Origin: Clostridiales bacterium
Lineage (GTDB): Bacteria > Bacillota_A > Clostridia > Christensenellales > Aristaeellaceae
Direction: 5' to 3'
Assembly (NCBI GenBank): GCA_012514855.1
Contig: JAAYZL010000300.1
Coordinates: forward strand, 1 to 7,419
Length of the DNA: 7,419 bases
Of the stretch, positions 1,662-7,419 are shown one piece after another (position 1 is the stretch's first letter; each line of letters starts with the position of its first letter). The position numbers were made by a program, and so were the translations under genes. The notes beneath the pieces were generated by a model that had not been told where the DNA came from, did not search any database, and saw only the letters and a program-made list of their open reading frames with translations.

Positions 1662-2432
1662 ATGATTCTGGCGCTGGACATCGGAAACACCAACATCAAG
1701 GCCGCGCTGTTTGAGGGCCTCGAGGACCGCACGTACTTCCGCGTTGCCAGCGACCGCAACAAGTCGTCCGACGAGTACGGCGTGCTGTTCCTGAGCATGC
1801 TCCGGCACGGCGGCTACGCGGCGTCCGACGTCACGGGCATCGTGTTTTCCTCGGTCGTGCCGACGATCAACTTCACGATCGAGCACATGTGCCGCAACTA
1901 CTTCGGCGTGGAGCCGATGAGCGTGCAGCCGGGCATCAAGACCGGCATCAACATCAGGTACGAAAACCCGCGCGAGCTCGGAAGCGACCGCATTGCGAAC
2001 GCAGTGGCCGCCTACGAGCTCTACGGCGGGCCCTGCATCACGATCGACTTCGGCACCGCGACCTCGTTCGGCGCGATCTCGGCCAGGGGCGAATTCCTCG
2101 GCGGCGCAATCTGCCCGGGGCTGAAGCTCGCGGCCGAGGCGCTGACCGAGCGCACGGCGAAGCTGCCGCGGTTCGAGCTGCAAAGGCCCGAGGCGGCGAT
2201 CGGCCGGACGACGATTGCGAACCTCCAGTCCGGCATCGTGTACGGATACATCGGGCAGGTCAGCTACCTGGTCGAGCGCATCCGCCGCGAGCTGGGCGCG
2301 CCCGACGCCAAGGTCATCGCGACCGGGGGTCTCGCGCTCCTGATCGCCGGGGATTCCAATGTCATCAACGTGCTCGACGGACTGCTTACGCTGAAAGGAC
2401 TGTGCCTGATCTATGGAAAAAACGCAGGGTAG
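1662..2432 (+). CDS. coaX: Type III pantothenate kinase
   Basis: CoaX phosphorylates pantothenate to 4'-phosphopantothenate using ATP, the first step of coenzyme A synthesis, in the cytoplasm. The 256-residue length is typical of the family. Visible motifs of the ASKHA fold are the N-terminal D6-I-G-N-T phosphate-binding motif, the G107-S-D-R110 motif holding the conserved Asp109 expected as catalytic base, the D129-F-G-T-A-T motif, the GGAICPG stretch at 147-153, and the adenosine-side ATGG motif at 220-223. The ATG at 1662 follows AAGGGA (1649-1654) by 7 bases and lies 4 bases after the ECF gene stop, so the two are probably cotranscribed and translationally coupled. Type III kinases are known to escape feedback inhibition by CoA, unlike type I enzymes. 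The 3' end overlaps the next gene by 20 bases. No key residue appears to be missing. Confidence 0.96.
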   Translation: MILALDIGNTNIKAALFEGLEDRTYFRVASDRNKSSDEYGVLFLSMLRHGGYAASDVTGIVFSSVVPTINFTIEHMCRNYFGVEPMSVQPGIKTGINIRYENPRELGSDRIANAVAAYELYGGPCITIDFGTATSFGAISARGEFLGGAICPGLKLAAEALTERTAKLPRFELQRPEAAIGRTTIANLQSGIVYGYIGQVSYLVERIRRELGAPDAKVIATGGLALLIAGDSNVINVLDGLLTLKGLCLIYGKNAG

Positions 2433-2880
2433 AACCTTTTCCCGCCGGGTCGACACCCCGGCCGGGCCGATGACGCTCGTCTCGGACGGCGAGGCGCTCA
2501 TCAGGGCGGACTTCGGCGGCGCCCCGGCCTCGGACGCGTGCCCGATACTGGACGCCGCCGAGCGCGAGCTTCGGGAATTCTTCGCGGGAAAGCGGCGCGC
2601 ATTCACCGTCCCGCTGAAGCCCTCCGGCACGCCGTTTCAGCTTCGCGTCTGGGCGGCGCTCCGCGAAATTCCCTACGGCGAGACGCGCAGCTATCAGGAC
2701 GTCGCGCGCGCGGTCGGAAACGAGCGGGCGACGCGCGCCGTCGGGGGCGCGAACAACCGCAACCCGATCTCCGTGATCGTGCCCTGCCACCGCGTGATCG
2801 GCAAGGGCGGCTCGCTCGTGGGCTACGGCGGCGGGCTGGAGAGAAAGCGGTACCTGCTCGAACTGGAGGGGCGAGAGTGA
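2413..2880 (+). CDS. ogt: Methylated-DNA--protein-cysteine S-methyltransferase (O6-alkylguanine repair)
   Basis: A suicide repair protein that moves the alkyl group from O6-alkylguanine (and less well O4-alkylthymine) in DNA to its own cysteine. The 155-residue length fits the Ogt class without an Ada regulatory domain. The C-terminal domain contains the active-site motif PCHRVIG with acceptor Cys125, preceded by the DNA-binding recognition segment with Arg108 (TRAVGGANNRNP, 107-118) and the YGETRSYQDVA stretch at 88-98. The N-terminal part (about 10-70) is the variable domain of the family. The ATG at 2413 overlaps coaX by 20 bases. Its best upstream purine run, AAAGGA at 2394-2399, is 13 bases away, so translation may depend on coupling to coaX; Met20 (2470) is a possible but less likely start. 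The symbol follows family usage; it may also be called mgt or adaB. Confidence 0.94.
   Translation: MEKTQGRTFSRRVDTPAGPMTLVSDGEALIRADFGGAPASDACPILDAAERELREFFAGKRRAFTVPLKPSGTPFQLRVWAALREIPYGETRSYQDVARAVGNERATRAVGGANNRNPISVIVPCHRVIGKGGSLVGYGGGLERKRYLLELEGRE
2865..2871 (+). promoter_or_regulatory. Ribosome binding site fixing a GTG start for the glycosylase gene
   Basis: GGAGGGG ends 5 bases before the GTG at 2877-2879. It decides the start of the glycosylase, which has no in-frame ATG near the point where family similarity begins. The GTG shares bases with the ogt stop codon in a GTGA overlap (2877-2880), a common arrangement for translational coupling. Confidence 0.8.
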
Positions 2881-3461
2881 ACTTCCGCTACGGAACCGAG
2901 GAGGCGGATTACCTCTCCCGGCGCGACCCGGCGCTCGGCGCGTGGATTCAAAAGCTCGGGGTTCTCGAGTGGTCGACCATCCCGGACGTGTTCGAGGCGC
3001 TGATGAGCTCGATCACCGCGCAGCAGGTCTCCGGCCGCGCGTACCGGACGGTCTGGGGGCGGCTGACCGCGCGCGGGCTCACGACGCCCGGGGCGTACCT
3101 CGCGATCCCCCAGGAGGAGCTCGCCGCGCTCGGCGTGGGCCCCAAGAAGGCGAAGTGGATGCGCCGGGCGGCGGAGCGCGCGGAGGAGCTCTCCGTCCTC
3201 CCGGAGCTTTCCGACGAGGACGCGATCAAAAAGCTCGTGTCGTTCGACGGCGTCGGCCGCTGGACGGCGGAGATGCTTTTAATCTTCTCGCTGAACCGCA
3301 TGGACATTTTGAGCCAGGGCGACTTCGGCATCCGCAAGGCGCTCTGCGCGCTCCACGGCGACGGCGCGGACAGGGATTTCGCGCGGTTCCGGGAGCTCTA
3401 CGCGCCGTATGCGAGCGTCGCGTCGCTGTACCTCTGGGAGATCGCGAATGGCGAGGTTTGA
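2877..3461 (+). CDS. AlkA-like DNA-3-methyladenine glycosylase (HhH-GPD family)
   Basis: Removes alkylated purines such as 3-methyladenine from DNA, starting base excision repair. The protein is 194 residues. It shows the HhH-GPD order: an N-terminal helical part with the SSITAQQVSGRA stretch (44-55), typical of AlkA/Mag enzymes, then the helix-hairpin-helix VSFDGVGRWTAEML (121-134), then the loop SQGDFGIRKAL (146-156) with Asp149 as the expected catalytic aspartate. No four-Cys iron-sulfur cluster follows, which argues against Nth and MutY. It lacks the N-terminal domain of E. coli AlkA (282 residues) and is nearer the short Mag-type enzymes. The frame is open far upstream through ogt, but that part is a shadow of ogt; GTG 2877 with GGAGGGG is the likely start. 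It overlaps ogt by 4 bases and recD2 by 14, so it belongs to the same operon and complements Ogt in alkylation repair. Confidence 0.92.
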   Translation: MNFRYGTEEADYLSRRDPALGAWIQKLGVLEWSTIPDVFEALMSSITAQQVSGRAYRTVWGRLTARGLTTPGAYLAIPQEELAALGVGPKKAKWMRRAAERAEELSVLPELSDEDAIKKLVSFDGVGRWTAEMLLIFSLNRMDILSQGDFGIRKALCALHGDGADRDFARFRELYAPYASVASLYLWEIANGEV

Positions 3462-5646
3462 GGGCGTCGTCGAAAAAATCTCCTTCCGGAGCGACGAGAG
3501 CGGCTTCACGGTCGCGCAGGTGAAGCTCGAGGACGGCTCGAGGCTCGCCGCGGTCGGCCTGATGCCGCTCTTGCTCGCGGGCGAGAAGGCGGCGTTCGAC
3601 GGCGACGTCGTCGAGCACCGCGAGTACGGGCGGCAGATTCGCGTGAGCTTCGTCGAATCCGTGCGGCCCGAGAGCCTCGACGGGATCGAGAAATACCTGG
3701 CCTCGGGGCTGATCCGCGGCGTCGGCCCGGCGACGGCGAAGCTGATCGTCGAGGAGTTCGGCGCCCGGACGCTCGACGTGCTCGAGTCCGAACCCGACCG
3801 GCTGACGGAGGTTCCCGGCATCGGCCGAAAGCGCGCCGCCCTGATCGCCGAGAGCTTTCTGAGCCACAGCCAGATGCGCGGCGCGATGATGTTTCTGCAG
3901 CGCTACGGGCTGTCGCCGGCGCTCGCGGCGAGGGTCTACCGCGCCTTCGGCGACCGCACCGAGCGCGCCGTCTCCGAAAACCCGTACCGGCTCGCCGACG
4001 AGGTCGACGGCGTCGGCTTCAAGACCGCCGACCGGATGGCGCTCTCGATGGGCTTCTCGCTCGAGAGCGAGTTTCGGCTCAAGAGCGGCATACGCTACGC
4101 GCTCTCGGAGGCGGCGAACGCGTCCGGGCACATGTTTTTGCCGCTGAACGACCTCGTCGGGCATGCGCGGCAGATGCTCGGCGCCGACGAGGACCTGGTC
4201 GACAACGCGGTCCGCAGCCTGCTCTTCTCCGGCGGGCTCGAGGCCGACGACATCGACGGCGAGACGGCGGTGTACCTGCCGTGGCTCTACGAGGCGGAGT
4301 GCGACGCGGCGTTCCGGCTGATCCGGCTCAAGCGGTCGTTCGATCGCGGGGACTTCGAGGAGGGCCGCGCCGAGCGGCTGATCGCGGAGGCGGAGGACGA
4401 GGCCGGGATGGAGCTCTGCCCGGAGCAGCGCGAGGCCGTGTGCGCGGTCGAGCGCGAGGGCGTGCTCGTGATCACCGGTGGGCCGGGAACCGGCAAGACG
4501 ACGACGCTCAACTGCATTTTGAAGCTCTTGGACGAGCTCGGCGGCGCGGAGCTCTGCGCCCCGACCGGCCGCGCGGCGAAGCGCATGGGCGAGGCGACCG
4601 GCCGCCCCGCGCGCACGATCCACCGGCTGCTAGAGTACGCGGGCGAGGACGGCCGCTTCCAGCGCGACGAGCACAACCCGCTCGACTGCCGGGCGGTCGT
4701 CGTCGACGAGATGAGCATGGTCGACATATTTCTGCTTCGGGCGCTCTTGCGCGCGATCCCGCAGGGCACGCGGCTCGTGATGGTCGGCGACAAGGATCAG
4801 CTTCCGTCGGTCGGCGCGGGCAACGTGTTGAAGGACATCATCGCGAGCGGCGCGGTGCCGACGGTCACCTTGACCGAGGTGTTCCGGCAGGCGGCGACGA
4901 GCATGATCGTCCGCAACGCGCACCGCATCAACCGCGGCGCGTATCCGGAGCTCAATCAGCGCGGCACCGACTTCTTCCTCGAGCGCCGGGAGAGCGTGCA
5001 GTCCGCGGTCGACTCGGTCGTCAAGCTGGTTACGAGGCGGCTGCCGAATTACATGGGGCTCGACCCGCTCCGGGACATTCAGGTCATGGCGCCGATGAAG
5101 CGCTCGGACGGCGGCGTGTTCGCGCTGAACGCGGCGCTCCAACAGGCGCTGAACCCGCCCGCGCCGGAAAAGCCCGAGATGCACCGCGGCGAGGCGCTGT
5201 TCCGGCTCGGCGACAAGGTCATGCAGATCAAGAACAACTACGGGCTCCGGTGGCGGCGCGGCGGGGAACCGGGCGAGGGCGCGTTCAACGGCGACATCGG
5301 CTTCATCGTGGAGATCGACCGGCTGGGCGAAAACGTGACCGTCGAGTTCGACGACGGGCGCGAGGCCGAGTACGGCCTGCAGGAATTGGAGGAGCTCGAG
5401 CTCGCGTACTGCATGTCGGTGCACAAGAGCCAGGGAAGCGAGTTCGACTGCGTCGTGCTTCCGCTGGTCGCGGGGCCGCGCATGCTGATGACGCGCAACC
5501 TTCTCTACACGGCGGTCACGCGCGCGAAGAAGCTCGTCGTCGCCGTCGGGCGCGAAAAGTGCTTGAACGGCATGGTCGACAACGACTATGTCGACCGCAG
5601 GTTCAGCGCGCTGGACCGGAGGCTGCGCGCGTGGTTGACGAAATAG
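3448..5646 (+). CDS. recD2: RecD2-type ATP-dependent 5'-3' DNA helicase (SF1B)
   Basis: A 732-residue SF1B helicase of the RecD2/YrrC type (known members about 715-800), which acts without RecBC. The start is ATG 3448, with GGGAG (3436-3440) 7 bases upstream; it overlaps the glycosylase by 14 bases. An N-terminal OB-like region is followed by three helix-hairpin-helix motifs, around residues 90-105 (RGVGPATAK), 121-133 (EVPGIGRKR) and 184-198 (DEVDGVGFKTADR), typical of RecD2. Helicase motifs follow in order: Q-like LCPEQREAV (about 324-332), Walker A GGPGTGKT (344-351, Lys350), motif Ia with APTGRAAKRM (371-380), Walker B VVDEMSMVD (418-426), motif III GDKDQLPSVGAGNVL (447-461), LTEVFRQ (475-481), SVHKSQGSEFD (657-667) and YTAVTRAKK (687-695). 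All motifs are intact. Homologues act in replication-fork and repair processes, in line with the repair genes upstream. No terminator is seen after the stop, and its last codons contain a -35 element. Confidence 0.96.
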   Translation: MARFEGVVEKISFRSDESGFTVAQVKLEDGSRLAAVGLMPLLLAGEKAAFDGDVVEHREYGRQIRVSFVESVRPESLDGIEKYLASGLIRGVGPATAKLIVEEFGARTLDVLESEPDRLTEVPGIGRKRAALIAESFLSHSQMRGAMMFLQRYGLSPALAARVYRAFGDRTERAVSENPYRLADEVDGVGFKTADRMALSMGFSLESEFRLKSGIRYALSEAANASGHMFLPLNDLVGHARQMLGADEDLVDNAVRSLLFSGGLEADDIDGETAVYLPWLYEAECDAAFRLIRLKRSFDRGDFEEGRAERLIAEAEDEAGMELCPEQREAVCAVEREGVLVITGGPGTGKTTTLNCILKLLDELGGAELCAPTGRAAKRMGEATGRPARTIHRLLEYAGEDGRFQRDEHNPLDCRAVVVDEMSMVDIFLLRALLRAIPQGTRLVMVGDKDQLPSVGAGNVLKDIIASGAVPTVTLTEVFRQAATSMIVRNAHRINRGAYPELNQRGTDFFLERRESVQSAVDSVVKLVTRRLPNYMGLDPLRDIQVMAPMKRSDGGVFALNAALQQALNPPAPEKPEMHRGEALFRLGDKVMQIKNNYGLRWRRGGEPGEGAFNGDIGFIVEIDRLGENVTVEFDDGREAEYGLQELEELELAYCMSVHKSQGSEFDCVVLPLVAGPRMLMTRNLLYTAVTRAKKLVVAVGREKCLNGMVDNDYVDRRFSALDRRLRAWLTK

Positions 5647-5664
5647 CCGCCGGCGGGGTATAAT
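5635..5664 (+). promoter_or_regulatory. Sigma-A-type promoter of the structured RNA, overlapping the recD2 end
   Basis: TTGACG (5635-5640) is followed by an 18-base spacer and a perfect TATAAT (5659-5664). The -35 is formed exactly by the Leu730 and Thr731 codons of recD2, and the recD2 stop lies in the spacer. Transcription should begin about 7 bases after the -10, near 5671, which is also the first base of the closing helix of the RNA. Confidence 0.82.
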
Positions 5665-5670
5665 AGGCGT

Positions 5671-5892
5671 GCGGTTCTCCGCGTCCGTGATTGAAAGTCG
5701 ATGCCAGTCGCAGGCGAAACGACCCACGTAAGCGGGAAAAATTCCCGTGAGCATGGTGCGATCTAGTGGTAAGTCCGGCCAATCTTCGGATTGAGAGGGC
5801 TCGTAGTGGGGAGGCTTCACGCCTTAGTAGCGAGCGCCCCGGCCGGCGGGTGTGGGGGCAAAGATCAGGTCGGGCGGGGAACCGCATTTTTT
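5671..5892 (+). ncRNA. Structured noncoding RNA, raiA-motif-like candidate (about 222 nt)
   Basis: The 260 bases between recD2 and the HAD gene hold no credible gene but strong RNA structure directly after a strong promoter. The 5' end GCGGTTCTCCGC (5671-5682) pairs with GCGGGGAACCGC (5874-5885) over 12 bp with one G-U, and U6 follows at 5887-5892. Inside are a CGGGAA/TTCCCG hairpin with an AAA loop (5733-5747) enclosed by CCAC/GTGG (5724-5727 with 5766-5769), a CAATC-UUCG-GATTG hairpin (5780-5793), and GCTCG/CGAGC (5799-5803 with 5831-5835) enclosing AGGC/GCCT (5812-5815 with 5821-5824). It does not fit 6S RNA, RNase P RNA, tmRNA or SRP RNA in size or motifs. Known raiA-motif RNAs of Firmicutes are about this size and, as I recall, lie near comFC and raiA, genes often linked to recD2 in clostridia; this is the best family guess. 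A leader controlling the HAD gene is the main alternative. Structured RNA: fairly sure. Family: uncertain. Confidence 0.75.
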
Positions 5893-5907
5893 ACGGAGGA
5901 GAGCCGG

Positions 5908-6603
5908 ATGCTGCAATACGACGCGATACTGATCGACGCGGACGACACGCTGTTGGACTTCCGGACCGCGGAGAGAAACGCGATCGCGGAGGTCATCGAA
6001 GCCCTCGGGATTTCCGATCCGGAAGCGGGCGAGGTCTACAGCCGGATCAACCACGCTTGCTGGAAGGAATTCGAGCGCGGGACGATGACGCAGGCCGAGC
6101 TCCGCGTGCGCAGGTTCGGCGATTTTCTGCAGTTCTACGGGGTTTCGGCCGATCCGGAGGAGGTCGGCGGGCGGTTCACCGGCGCGCTGTCTAGGCAGGG
6201 GATGCTGCTCCCCGGCGCGCTCGAGGCTGTCCGCGCAATCGCCGAACGGCTCCCGGTCGCGCTCGTCACGAACGGCATCTCGAGCGTCCAGCACGGGCGC
6301 ATCGACGCATCGCCCCTGCGCCCCTACATATCGGCCCTGGTCATCTCCGGCGAGGTCGGCTTCCAGAAGCCCGACCCCAGGATGATCTTCCGCGCGCTCG
6401 AAATGCTCGGCGGCGTCGAGCCCGGCCGCGCGCTGATGGCGGGCGACAGCCTGACGAGCGACGTGCTCGCCGCGAACCGGGCCAACGCCGACGCGTGCTG
6501 GTACAACCCGTCCGGCGAATTGGCCCCCGCGGGGTACAAAATCCGCTACGAAATCCGCGACATCCGGGAGCTTCCGGGCATCGCGCTCGCGGAAAATTTT
6601 TGA
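5908..6603 (+). CDS. HAD-superfamily hydrolase, YjjG-like pyrimidine 5'-nucleotidase family
   Basis: A 231-residue cytoplasmic phosphatase. The start is ATG 5908 with GGAGGA (5895-5900) 7 bases upstream; the frame is open further back, but only into the structured RNA. All four HAD motifs are present: D10-A-D-D-T (Asp10 nucleophile, Asp12 acid/base), Thr121 in VTNG, Lys154 in GFQKPDP, and G179-D-S-L-T-S-D185 for magnesium binding. The helical cap lies between motifs I and II (about 17-100), as in subclass I enzymes. The DADDTLLDF start and the SSVQHGRIDASPLRPY stretch after motif II are typical of YjjG. YjjG of E. coli hydrolyses pyrimidine and noncanonical nucleoside monophosphates and is thought to clean the nucleotide pool; the substrate here is inferred. 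It follows the structured RNA with only 15 bases between the U tract and the ATG, so it depends on readthrough or is controlled by that RNA. A terminator follows. Confidence 0.92.
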   Translation: MLQYDAILIDADDTLLDFRTAERNAIAEVIEALGISDPEAGEVYSRINHACWKEFERGTMTQAELRVRRFGDFLQFYGVSADPEEVGGRFTGALSRQGMLLPGALEAVRAIAERLPVALVTNGISSVQHGRIDASPLRPYISALVISGEVGFQKPDPRMIFRALEMLGGVEPGRALMAGDSLTSDVLAANRANADACWYNPSGELAPAGYKIRYEIRDIRELPGIALAENF

Positions 6604-6621
6604 CTCAATTCCAACGACATA

Positions 6622-6653
6622 AGGCGTCGGGACGGCTCCCGGCGCCTTTTTTT
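6622..6653 (+). terminator. Strong intrinsic terminator after the HAD gene
   Basis: An 11-bp stem (6622-6632 with 6637-6647, one G-U pair) closes the loop CGGC and is followed by a run of seven Ts at 6647-6653. It starts 19 bases after the HAD stop and separates that gene from the secreted-protein gene. Confidence 0.92.
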
Positions 6654-6686
6654 GTGCCGGCTCCTGGAAAATGGCGAAAAAACGAC

Positions 6687-6738
6687 AAAAATATTTTTTT
6701 CGGGTTGCCATATATTACAATTTCATGTATAATATAAT
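6687..6738 (+). promoter_or_regulatory. Strong promoter with UP-like A/T tract before the secreted-protein gene
   Basis: TTGCCA (6705-6710), a 17-base spacer and a perfect TATAAT (6728-6733) form a near-consensus sigma-A promoter. A second TATAAT (6733-6738) overlaps the first by one base and gives a 22-base spacer to the same -35, so it is probably not used with it. An A5-TA-T7 tract (6687-6700) lies just upstream of the -35, where UP elements bind the RNA polymerase alpha subunit. The predicted start near 6740 leaves a 35-nt leader with GGGAGG at 6760-6765. Confidence 0.82.
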
Positions 6739-6774
6739 ATAGTATGAACTTTCTGCCGTGGGAGGATTCTGACG

Positions 6775-7419
6775 ATGAAGAAGATGCTGGTCAAGCTGCT
6801 GTCCCTGCTTTTGTGCGCCGTGACGCTCGTTGGCGCGATGGGTGAGTTCGCTTTGGCGGAGCCGGACGCGGGCATACAGTCCGGGACGACGGAAACCCCG
6901 ACGGACGCGCCGACGGAAACCCCGACGGACGCGCCGACGGAGACCCCGACGGACGCGCCGACGGAAACCCCGACGGACGCGCCGACGGAAACCCCGACGG
7001 ACGCGCCGACGGAAACCCCGACGGACGCGCCGACGGAGGCCCCGACGGACGCGCCGACGGAGGCCCCGACGGACGCGCCGACGGAGACCCCGACGGACGC
7101 GCCGACCGAGGCCCCGACGGACGCCCCGACCGGCGCGCCGGAGCTCGAGGAGCCCGGCCTGATGGGGTTCTCGCTGATGATGCCGATGAGCAGCGGGGGC
7201 AGCGTCATCGTCGACGGCGCGACCTACACCTATGAGCTGAACAGCGCGGGGGACGCCGCGATACTGACCGGCTACGAGGGCGACAAAGTCACGCTGTCGA
7301 TCCCGTCGACGCTCGCCTCCTACCCGCTCGAGGCGATCGGCCCGGAGGCGTTCAAGGGCGCGAACATGGTCACGCTCGTCGTGCCCGGAGACCTTAACTC
7401 GATCGGCGCGGGCGCGTTC
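6775..7419 (+). CDS. Secreted BspA-like leucine-rich repeat protein with Thr/Pro repeat stalk, 5' part
   Basis: The frame from ATG 6775 stays open to the window edge (215 residues), so the gene is cut at its 3' end. GGGAGG (6760-6765) lies 9 bases upstream. Residues 1-28 form a Sec signal peptide: basic MKKMLVK, a Leu-rich core, and a predicted cut after Ala-Leu-Ala28. Cys14 is not in a lipobox. Residues 39-118 are ten 8-residue repeats, TETPTDAP or TEAPTDAP, ending in a partial TGAP, probably an extended and possibly glycosylated stalk. A short Met-rich hydrophobic patch (129-138) follows. From about residue 143 the sequence reads like the entry of BspA/LRR_5 proteins: a Thr/Tyr-rich strand, an IPSTL segment and then the repeat signature IGPEAFKGANMVTLVVPG with IGAGAF. 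Such proteins are exported and often act in adhesion or surface display. A stalk at the N terminus, before the LRRs, suggests any wall anchor would be at the unseen C terminus. Ligand unknown. Confidence 0.88.
   Translation, partial: MKKMLVKLLSLLLCAVTLVGAMGEFALAEPDAGIQSGTTETPTDAPTETPTDAPTETPTDAPTETPTDAPTETPTDAPTETPTDAPTEAPTDAPTEAPTDAPTETPTDAPTEAPTDAPTGAPELEEPGLMGFSLMMPMSSGGSVIVDGATYTYELNSAGDAAILTGYEGDKVTLSIPSTLASYPLEAIGPEAFKGANMVTLVVPGDLNSIGAGAF
6889..7140 (+). repeat. 24-bp coding tandem repeat, ten copies plus a half copy
   Basis: Ten in-frame 24-bp units run from 6889 to 7128, each ACG-GA(A/G)-(A/G)CC-CCG-ACG-GAC-GCG-CCG or a close variant, with a 12-base degenerate half unit at 7129-7140. 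Units 1, 2, 4, 5 and 6 are identical. Units 3 and 9 differ only in GAG for GAA. Units 7 and 8 have GAG-GCC, changing Thr to Ala. Unit 10 is the most diverged. Because the unit is a multiple of three, copy changes would keep the frame. Confidence 0.97.

Follow-up and report, generated by a model that had tools for sequence, protein, structure and literature searches.

A full-length raiA (ModT) RNA between recD2 and a HAD hydrolase gene in a Clostridiales bacterium, and a small zinc protein as a candidate partner in its relatives

Results

Identity and structure of the RNA

The stretch of Clostridiales DNA analyzed here, 7,419 nucleotides in length and referred to below as the window, contains a full-length raiA motif (ModT) RNA at positions 5671-5885, that is, a member of an already known RNA family. 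We consider it probable, at roughly 0.82, that this is an RNA gene with its own promoter, ending at helix P1 and the U-tract that follows it, whose product acts in trans. The features discussed below are these:

3448..5646, plus strand: recD2 (SF1B helicase RecD2), upstream neighbor (TIGR01448, 836.4 bits; Pfam)
5635..5640, plus strand: -35 hexamer TTGACG (sequence, promoter scan)
5659..5664, plus strand: -10 hexamer TATAAT, with a predicted start at about 5671 (sequence, promoter scan)
5671..5885, plus strand: raiA (ModT) RNA, about 215 nt (Rfam match 5674-5882 by cmscan, covariation)
5671..5682, plus strand: P1, 5' strand, pairing with 5874-5885; in many relatives its outer pairs differ in both bases
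5703..5715, plus strand: P3 hairpin GCC-AGUCGCA-GGC, whose loop holds the pk1 5' strand GUCGCA, 5707-5712 (sequence, A2 alignment)
5733..5747, plus strand: P5 hairpin CGGGAA-AAA-UUCCCG (sequence, fold; covaries in the A2 alignment)
5757..5762, plus strand: pk1 3' strand UGCGAU (sequence; its place agrees with the pk-loop in the excerpts of PMC11751092)
5775..5846, plus strand: P6 domain, CCGGC 5775-5779 with GCCGG 5842-5846 (cmscan structure line, covariation)
5780..5793, plus strand: P7, the UUCG hairpin CAAUC-UUCG-GAUUG, inside P6 (sequence, cmscan structure line)
5797..5839, plus strand: P8, inside P6 (cmscan structure line)
5874..5885, plus strand: P1, 3' strand, with an alternative weak local hairpin GCGG-GGAA-CCGC (P1 -23.2 versus -6.0 kcal/mol)
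5887..5892, plus strand: U6, terminator-like, preceded by A5886 (sequence)
5908..6603, plus strand: HAD hydrolase of the YjjG/YfnB nucleotidase type, downstream neighbor (TIGR02254, 169.4 bits, cut-off 159.9; Pfam)

When the whole window was searched with cmscan, RF03072 (raiA) was the sole Rfam family to match above its cut-off, at 5674-5882 of the plus strand, with 185.6 bits and an E-value of 2.8e-48 (curated cut-off, 101.3 bits). The match covers the model from position 1 to 209, end to end and with no truncation. A first-pass annotation, made from the sequence, had named a candidate raiA-motif RNA at this place and proposed the Rfam search as a check; both the full-length match and the covariation described below bear it out. 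The match also rejects the alternative of a new RNA family at 5671-5885. A protein gene in this interval is likewise rejected, as had been anticipated, the open reading frames that cross the RNA being mechanical.

The RNA matches the RF03072 family, known as ModT in Clostridioides difficile, in its helices from P1 to P8, in the two pk1 strands and in having a promoter that abuts P1. P1 is formed by GCGGUUCUCCGC at 5671-5682 and GCGGGGAACCGC at 5874-5885, which pair over 12 bp including one G-U; this end-to-end pairing, the U6 behind it and the UUCG-capped helix at 5780-5793 had all been claimed earlier, and each can be read in the sequence. According to the excerpts of PMC11751092, the P6 region of raiA RNAs occurs either as a short stem (variant 1, 32%) or as P6-P8 (variant 2, 68%). 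By our reading the window RNA is of the second type, and the RNAs of three other loci (L174-L176), at 164-172 nt, look like the first. The same excerpts describe a pseudoknot, pk1, in which the P3 loop pairs with the pk-loop. Both strands of a candidate pk1 are present in the window, and GUCGCA (5707-5712) can form six pairs with UGCGAU (5757-5762).

Positions 5671-5892 fold with a minimum free energy of -98.3 kcal/mol (z -3.38), and 0 of 200 dinucleotide shuffles fold equally well. This nested minimum-energy fold differs from that of raiA RNAs, one example being the possible pairing of the P3 loop (5706-5712) with 5757-5762. Ahead of the RNA, TTGACG-N18-TATAAT at 5635-5664 has 11 of the 12 consensus bases and an 18-nt spacer, in keeping with the near-consensus promoter of the first-pass annotation, and the scan found four promoter-like sites in 5500-6800 against a shuffle mean of 0.2. 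At the other end, a terminator scan that requires a short hairpin called no intrinsic terminator at 5874-5892.

Conservation and covariation

Relatives were reached through RecD2 (3448-5646), for which 80 loci were kept; the three best of these belong to uncultured Clostridiales RUG isolates, with 63-66% RecD2 identity. A raiA RNA above the cut-off was found in 16 of 20 genomes from the RecD2 loci, one per genome. The corresponding figures were 165 out of 200 genomes for the family to which genome G003 belongs and 67 out of 200 for the order of genome G012, in each case against 0 of 14 control genomes. The closest relatives found were the genomes G025, G168 and G094, with RecD2 identities of 78, 77 and 70%, respectively, over the matched part.

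An alignment (A2) was made of 35 raiA RNAs, namely that of the window and those of 34 relatives that we selected among those fetched. RNAalifold predicts 59 pairs for it, in a nested consensus that departs from the cryo-EM fold in some helices; 29 of these pairs have at least one sequence altered on both sides, and such changes are concentrated in P1, P5, P6, P7 and P8. Covarying pairs are thus present, in favor of the family named in the first-pass annotation.

The alignment also bears on whether the RNA is a decaying relic in the lineage of the window. Its score of 185.6 bits is below those of G094 (197.3 bits) and G025 (197.9 bits), and of the 106 columns with at least 90% conservation among the other 34 rows it deviates at 2. 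One of these two deviations, in inner P1 (UGAUU with GAUCA), keeps the pairing, with A-U in place of the G-C of most rows, and at the 74 columns that are invariant across the other 34 rows the window RNA is identical throughout. Its promoter is intact. We therefore regard decay as very improbable.

Gene neighborhood

The neighbors of raiA RNAs were surveyed at 72 oriented loci, consisting of the window and the 71 best-scoring relatives from three raiA genome searches (L097 was dropped). Classes were assigned by tblastn with fixed references, within 1.5 kb and for the families having a reference; this replaced an earlier blastp clustering of open reading frames, which had been spoiled by shadow ORFs. 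Upstream, RecD2 was found at 30 loci, ComFC at 23, MetA at 6, CorA at 4 and HAD at 1. Downstream, the most frequent neighbor was a small zinc protein, here called ZnR, at 38 loci, followed by HAD (8), HPF (7), PBP (5), and MetK, PfkB and SecA (4 each). The CorA and MetK neighbors lie on the opposite strand. Neighbors as varied as these are what is expected for a gene that acts in trans.

In its typical setting an RF03072 RNA has comFC upstream, raiA/hpf downstream, or both; the frequencies are 74% for comFC and 66% for raiA/hpf in Soares 2024, as quoted in the excerpts of PMC11706538. The window RNA differs, being flanked by recD2 and the YjjG-type HAD gene, with neither comFC nor an hpf/raiA gene beside it. 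These neighbors are typical rather than defining, and with published frequencies of 74% and 66% their absence is not rare and does not disqualify the RNA. The position behind recD2, which the first-pass annotation had counted in favor of a raiA RNA, is not the published landmark, and recD2 is rejected as a fixed one; over the 72 loci, recD2 precedes the RNA at 30 and comFC at 23.

Among the closest relatives, recD2 precedes the RNA in G025, G094 and G168, and a HAD gene follows it in G025 and G094; the G168 contig stops 68 nt past the RNA. The order RNA-HAD is shared by the window, L106, L108 and L109, while RNA-ZnR-HAD occurs at L086, L092, L121 and L132, and RNA-ZnR-HPF at L127, L142 and L143. 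One locus, L092, has recD2-comFC-RNA-ZnR-HAD in a single stretch, an arrangement from which we infer that both comFC and ZnR were lost in the lineage of the window. A gene for the HPF (raiA) protein itself was found in 12 of 15 relatives checked, the copy of G025 being on a different contig from the RNA; G094 gave no match to it.

The HAD protein of the window is compatible with an ATG start at 5908, only 22 nt past P1, and Rfam types RF03072 as a riboswitch, which implies action in cis. In addition, the 4-bp GNRA-like hairpin GCGG-GGAA-CCGC overlaps the 3' strand of P1 just ahead of U6. On this basis the RNA could be imagined to serve the HAD gene in cis, as a leader or riboswitch in which a ligand would shift the 3' end between P1 and the small hairpin. 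However, P1 is far more stable than that hairpin (-23.2 versus -6.0 kcal/mol), and HAD lies downstream at just 8 of the 72 loci, with ZnR intervening at 4 of these 8. A riboswitch would hold a fixed place before one gene class and carry an expression platform, but the downstream genes vary over the 72 loci. Moreover, the trans-complementation given in the excerpts of PMC11706538 excludes a purely cis role in C. difficile and, by what that paper cites, also in C. acetobutylicum. We thus judge this explanation improbable for the window.

Some further observations concern the neighborhoods themselves. A PBP (periplasmic-binding protein) gene follows the raiA RNA at L082, L115, L119, L120 and L122, with MetA upstream at L082, L115 and L119; PBP genes are mentioned in the excerpts of PMC11477304. 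Within the window, an ECF transporter S-component gene stands directly ahead of a type III pantothenate kinase gene (1064-2432), possibly a pantothenate uptake pair, and a row of DNA repair genes spans 2413-5646 (O6-alkylguanine methyltransferase, an HhH-GPD protein and recD2). Behind the HAD gene there is an intrinsic-terminator-like hairpin (6621-6648), and a near-consensus promoter at 6705-6733 is followed by a gene for a protein with TETPTDAP-type repeats.

A small zinc protein gene behind many raiA RNAs

At 38 of the 72 oriented loci (within L081-L152) the next gene downstream, on the same strand, belongs to the ZnR family. In the set of raiA matches from the family of G003, at least 113 of the 150 matches listed have a same-strand ZnR gene no more than 150 nt further downstream, at a distance of 28-66 nt (median 35) among them; in the order set, which overlaps with the family set, this is so for 44 of 68 matches, at 28-50 nt (median 36). 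The protein has 90-98 residues and two CxxC...CxxC modules (two treble clefs), and 8 cysteines are invariant across 17 aligned members. Its domains are zf_Tbcl (PF13451, 94.0 bits) and zf_Tbcl_2 (PF23477, 68.4 bits; TIGR04272). An AlphaFold model of ZnR (mean pLDDT 84.1, pTM 0.44) has no fold match in the PDB at E <= 0.001, and its sequence gives weak zinc-finger and LIM matches there (best E 0.0013).

A literature search found no zinc protein beside raiA, although Soares 2024 may already list one; the excerpts of PMC11706538, PMC11751092 and PMC11477304 each contain 0 occurrences of 'zinc'. Relative to the literature consulted, in the portions available, the ZnR linkage and the reduced RNAs described below appear to be new, as they were not encountered there.

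We hypothesize, from gene order, that the raiA system of many clostridia includes ZnR as a protein component. In one form this would be a raiA ribonucleoprotein: the RNA would scaffold ZnR, and in the lineage of the window, which would have lost the linked gene, an unlinked paralogue or another protein would have taken over. Besides the frequency and the tight spacing of the linkage, further points speak for this possibility. At 21 of the 38 ZnR-linked loci, both recD2 and comFC are missing from the upstream DNA examined, which extends up to 1500 nt (950 nt at L094 and 4 nt at L096). The C. difficile ModT RNA shows signs of protein binding; co-sedimentation in gradients and changes in reactivity after deproteination are described for it (PMC11706538, excerpts).

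Gene linkage, however, differs from binding. No ZnR gene stands directly behind the RNA in the window, G025, G094 or G064; a profile search found an unlinked copy in G025, only a weak match in G168 and no match in G094. This profile was built from the 17 raiA-linked members, so that its score ranking is biased; the adjacency counts are unbiased. G421, a Clostridium with a 205.6-bit raiA RNA, has only partial ZnR matches. Unlinked ZnR-like paralogues exist, also in genomes without raiA, and at 13 of 15 ZnR loci from genomes without an above-cut-off raiA RNA no raiA-like RNA was found. The only raiA-like matches among these 15 were those at L182 (44.8 bits) and L192 (21 bits, E 0.12). The lack of a PDB match for the ZnR model also counts against the ribonucleoprotein, which we hold to be a tentative possibility.

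Promoter types and the sequence after P1

A promoter-like site with at least 9 of 12 consensus bases and a -10 hexamer ending 1-17 nt ahead of P1 was found at 63 of 71 loci with sufficient upstream DNA, counting within 60 nt before P1, where the mononucleotide-shuffle rate is 0.06. These sites fall into two types. With p-values that ignore shared ancestry, a TTGC -35 element occurs at 32 of 37 ZnR-linked loci versus 2 of 29 others (p 4e-11), and a TTGAC element at 0 of 37 versus 19 of 29 (p 1e-9). The sequence directly after P1 differs in the same sense: at least 4 T within 7 nt were found at 16 of 29 loci without ZnR versus 0 of 38 with it (Fisher p 6e-8, again ignoring shared ancestry), a distribution that agrees with a ZnR ribonucleoprotein. 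By its sequence the window RNA, with TTGAC, P1 followed by U6, and no ZnR, is of the free-standing type.

The idea that T-runs near the 3' end are exclusive to loci without ZnR had to be rejected. When T5 runs are counted over the whole 30 nt that follow P1, the two groups have them equally often (11 of 38 ZnR-linked loci versus 10 of 33 others), and the U-tract argument thus rests solely on position directly after P1. For the ribonucleoprotein, the 11 ZnR-linked loci with such a run mean that co-transcription of RNA and ZnR is not assured, and we have rated the ZnR reading slightly lower because of this result.

Reduced raiA RNAs in the Tepidanaerobacter order

In Tepidanaerobacter sp. EBM-38 (G430, locus L068), a raiA match of 44.8 bits, below the cut-off, lies 42 nt before ZnR. 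The pattern GGTCTGTGGTTG-N65-95-CCAGGTCAG identified one reduced RNA per genome in 19 of 22 genomes of this order, and none with the reversed control; a shorter form of the pattern gave 11 matches in 398 genomes of the phylum, all within the same 19 RNAs. These RNAs (L195-L213; additional coordinates, L182:528-646) measure 116-128 nt with an extended P1 and score 38.9-58.9 bits, all below the Rfam cut-off. They retain P1, P3 and one hairpin, without P6-P8. Compared with the P6 variants of PMC11751092, they appear to be without any P6, a complete loss not found described in the excerpts of that paper.

In all 19 reduced RNAs a GCCG loop and a CGGC strand are present that could form pk1, and a pk1 is plausible here as judged from the sequences; it beats shuffles at 5% in 3 of the 19 (L199, L205 and L211). 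Single-sequence folding gave z-scores of 0.03 to -2.67 over five of the RNAs, which is unimpressive for most. Upstream, a -10/-35 pair with 9-10 of 12 consensus bases was found at 18 of the 18 loci with sufficient upstream DNA; the -35 element is TTGCAT or TTGCTT in 17 of these, and L199 shows a register shift. A single stretch in G087 (L192:220-332; 21 bits, E 0.12), with TTGCAG and TATAAT upstream and 37 nt before ZnR, is possibly a second reduced form, represented by this one case.

At 19 of 19 reduced loci a ZnR gene comes next on the same strand, 48-57 nt past the CCAGGTCAG box (its domains were checked at 2 of them), and the RecD2, ComFC, HPF, SecA and HAD references gave no match at these loci. 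That ZnR stays behind the RNA in another order adds to the case for a ribonucleoprotein. The retained link could also be explained if, in the ZnR-linked lineages, the RNA were a 5' UTR regulating ZnR in the manner of a leader, which would make the window RNA an orphan without its target gene. The RNA-ZnR distance is short and its range narrow, and the ZnR-linked loci have no T-rich stretch directly after P1, both in line with a leader. Yet the orphan RNA has kept 185.6 bits and an 11/12 promoter and so seems to be under selection without ZnR, there are loci at which hpf, PBP or PfkB is the next classified gene, and action in trans has been published (PMC11706538, excerpts). On balance we think leader-type regulation of ZnR unlikely.

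Sporulation genes

The excerpts of PMC11706538 report effects of ModT on c-di-GMP and sporulation. Spo0A_C was found in 13 of 15 relatives checked, including G025, G094 and G168. In a set of 200 genomes from one order, Spo0A_C is present in 180; raiA (E <= 0.001) was found in 54 of the 180 genomes with Spo0A_C and in 14 of the 20 lacking it (Fisher p 7e-4 for draft genomes, with shared ancestry uncorrected and stricter filters in the raiA search). The expectation that raiA goes with sporulation genes thus failed in this set. In one of the 14 genomes, G104, the contig that carries the raiA RNA measures at least 1.86 Mb. Since raiA RNAs occur in genomes without Spo0A_C, we conclude that raiA RNA is not tied to Spo0A.

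Discussion

In C. difficile, trans-complementation, high abundance and stability have been described for ModT, and trans-complementation is also cited for the raiA RNA of C. acetobutylicum (PMC11706538, excerpts). In the two clostridia cited, raiA/ModT is reported to be among the most abundant RNAs (PMC11706538 and PMC11751092, excerpts). For the window RNA, our preferred reading is a free-standing RNA, acting in trans and ending at P1-U6. It is most likely a trans-acting structured RNA, perhaps an RNP.

Transcription would start at about 5671 from the RNA's own sigma-A-type promoter, and the RNA would fold co-transcriptionally. Closure of P1 just ahead of U6 would then end most transcripts, with some reading into the HAD gene; the predicted transcript unit, delimited by the promoter and P1-U6, has about 215-220 nt. 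The product would be abundant, stable and structured, acting in trans in growth-phase transition like its C. difficile and C. acetobutylicum orthologues, and would probably be protein-bound. The candidate partner is, in many relatives, encoded directly behind the RNA. The window RNA itself would work without a linked ZnR, with an unlinked ZnR or with another protein.

Among large bacterial RNAs, the conserved OLE RNA has RNA-binding proteins dedicated to it. It offers a functional analogy to raiA and ZnR, to which its RNP is unrelated in sequence; OLE RNA has dedicated partner proteins, whereas for raiA, ZnR is a candidate partner by gene linkage alone. It is conceivable, though doubtful, that ZnR is a dedicated and previously unrecognized raiA/ModT protein, its gene lying about 30-65 nt past the RNA in two distinct groups of clostridia. 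In that case the reduced RNAs might represent the core with which ZnR acts, and the lineage of the window might have lost its linked ZnR, its RNA becoming a free-standing gene whose promoter is stronger and which ends at P1 and a U-tract.

The window RNA is in itself one further member of the raiA family. Taken together, a candidate partner in ZnR, a naturally occurring form of about 120 nt in which the minimal core may be seen, and two architectures with different promoters would make the question of the mechanism and partner of raiA RNA directly testable.
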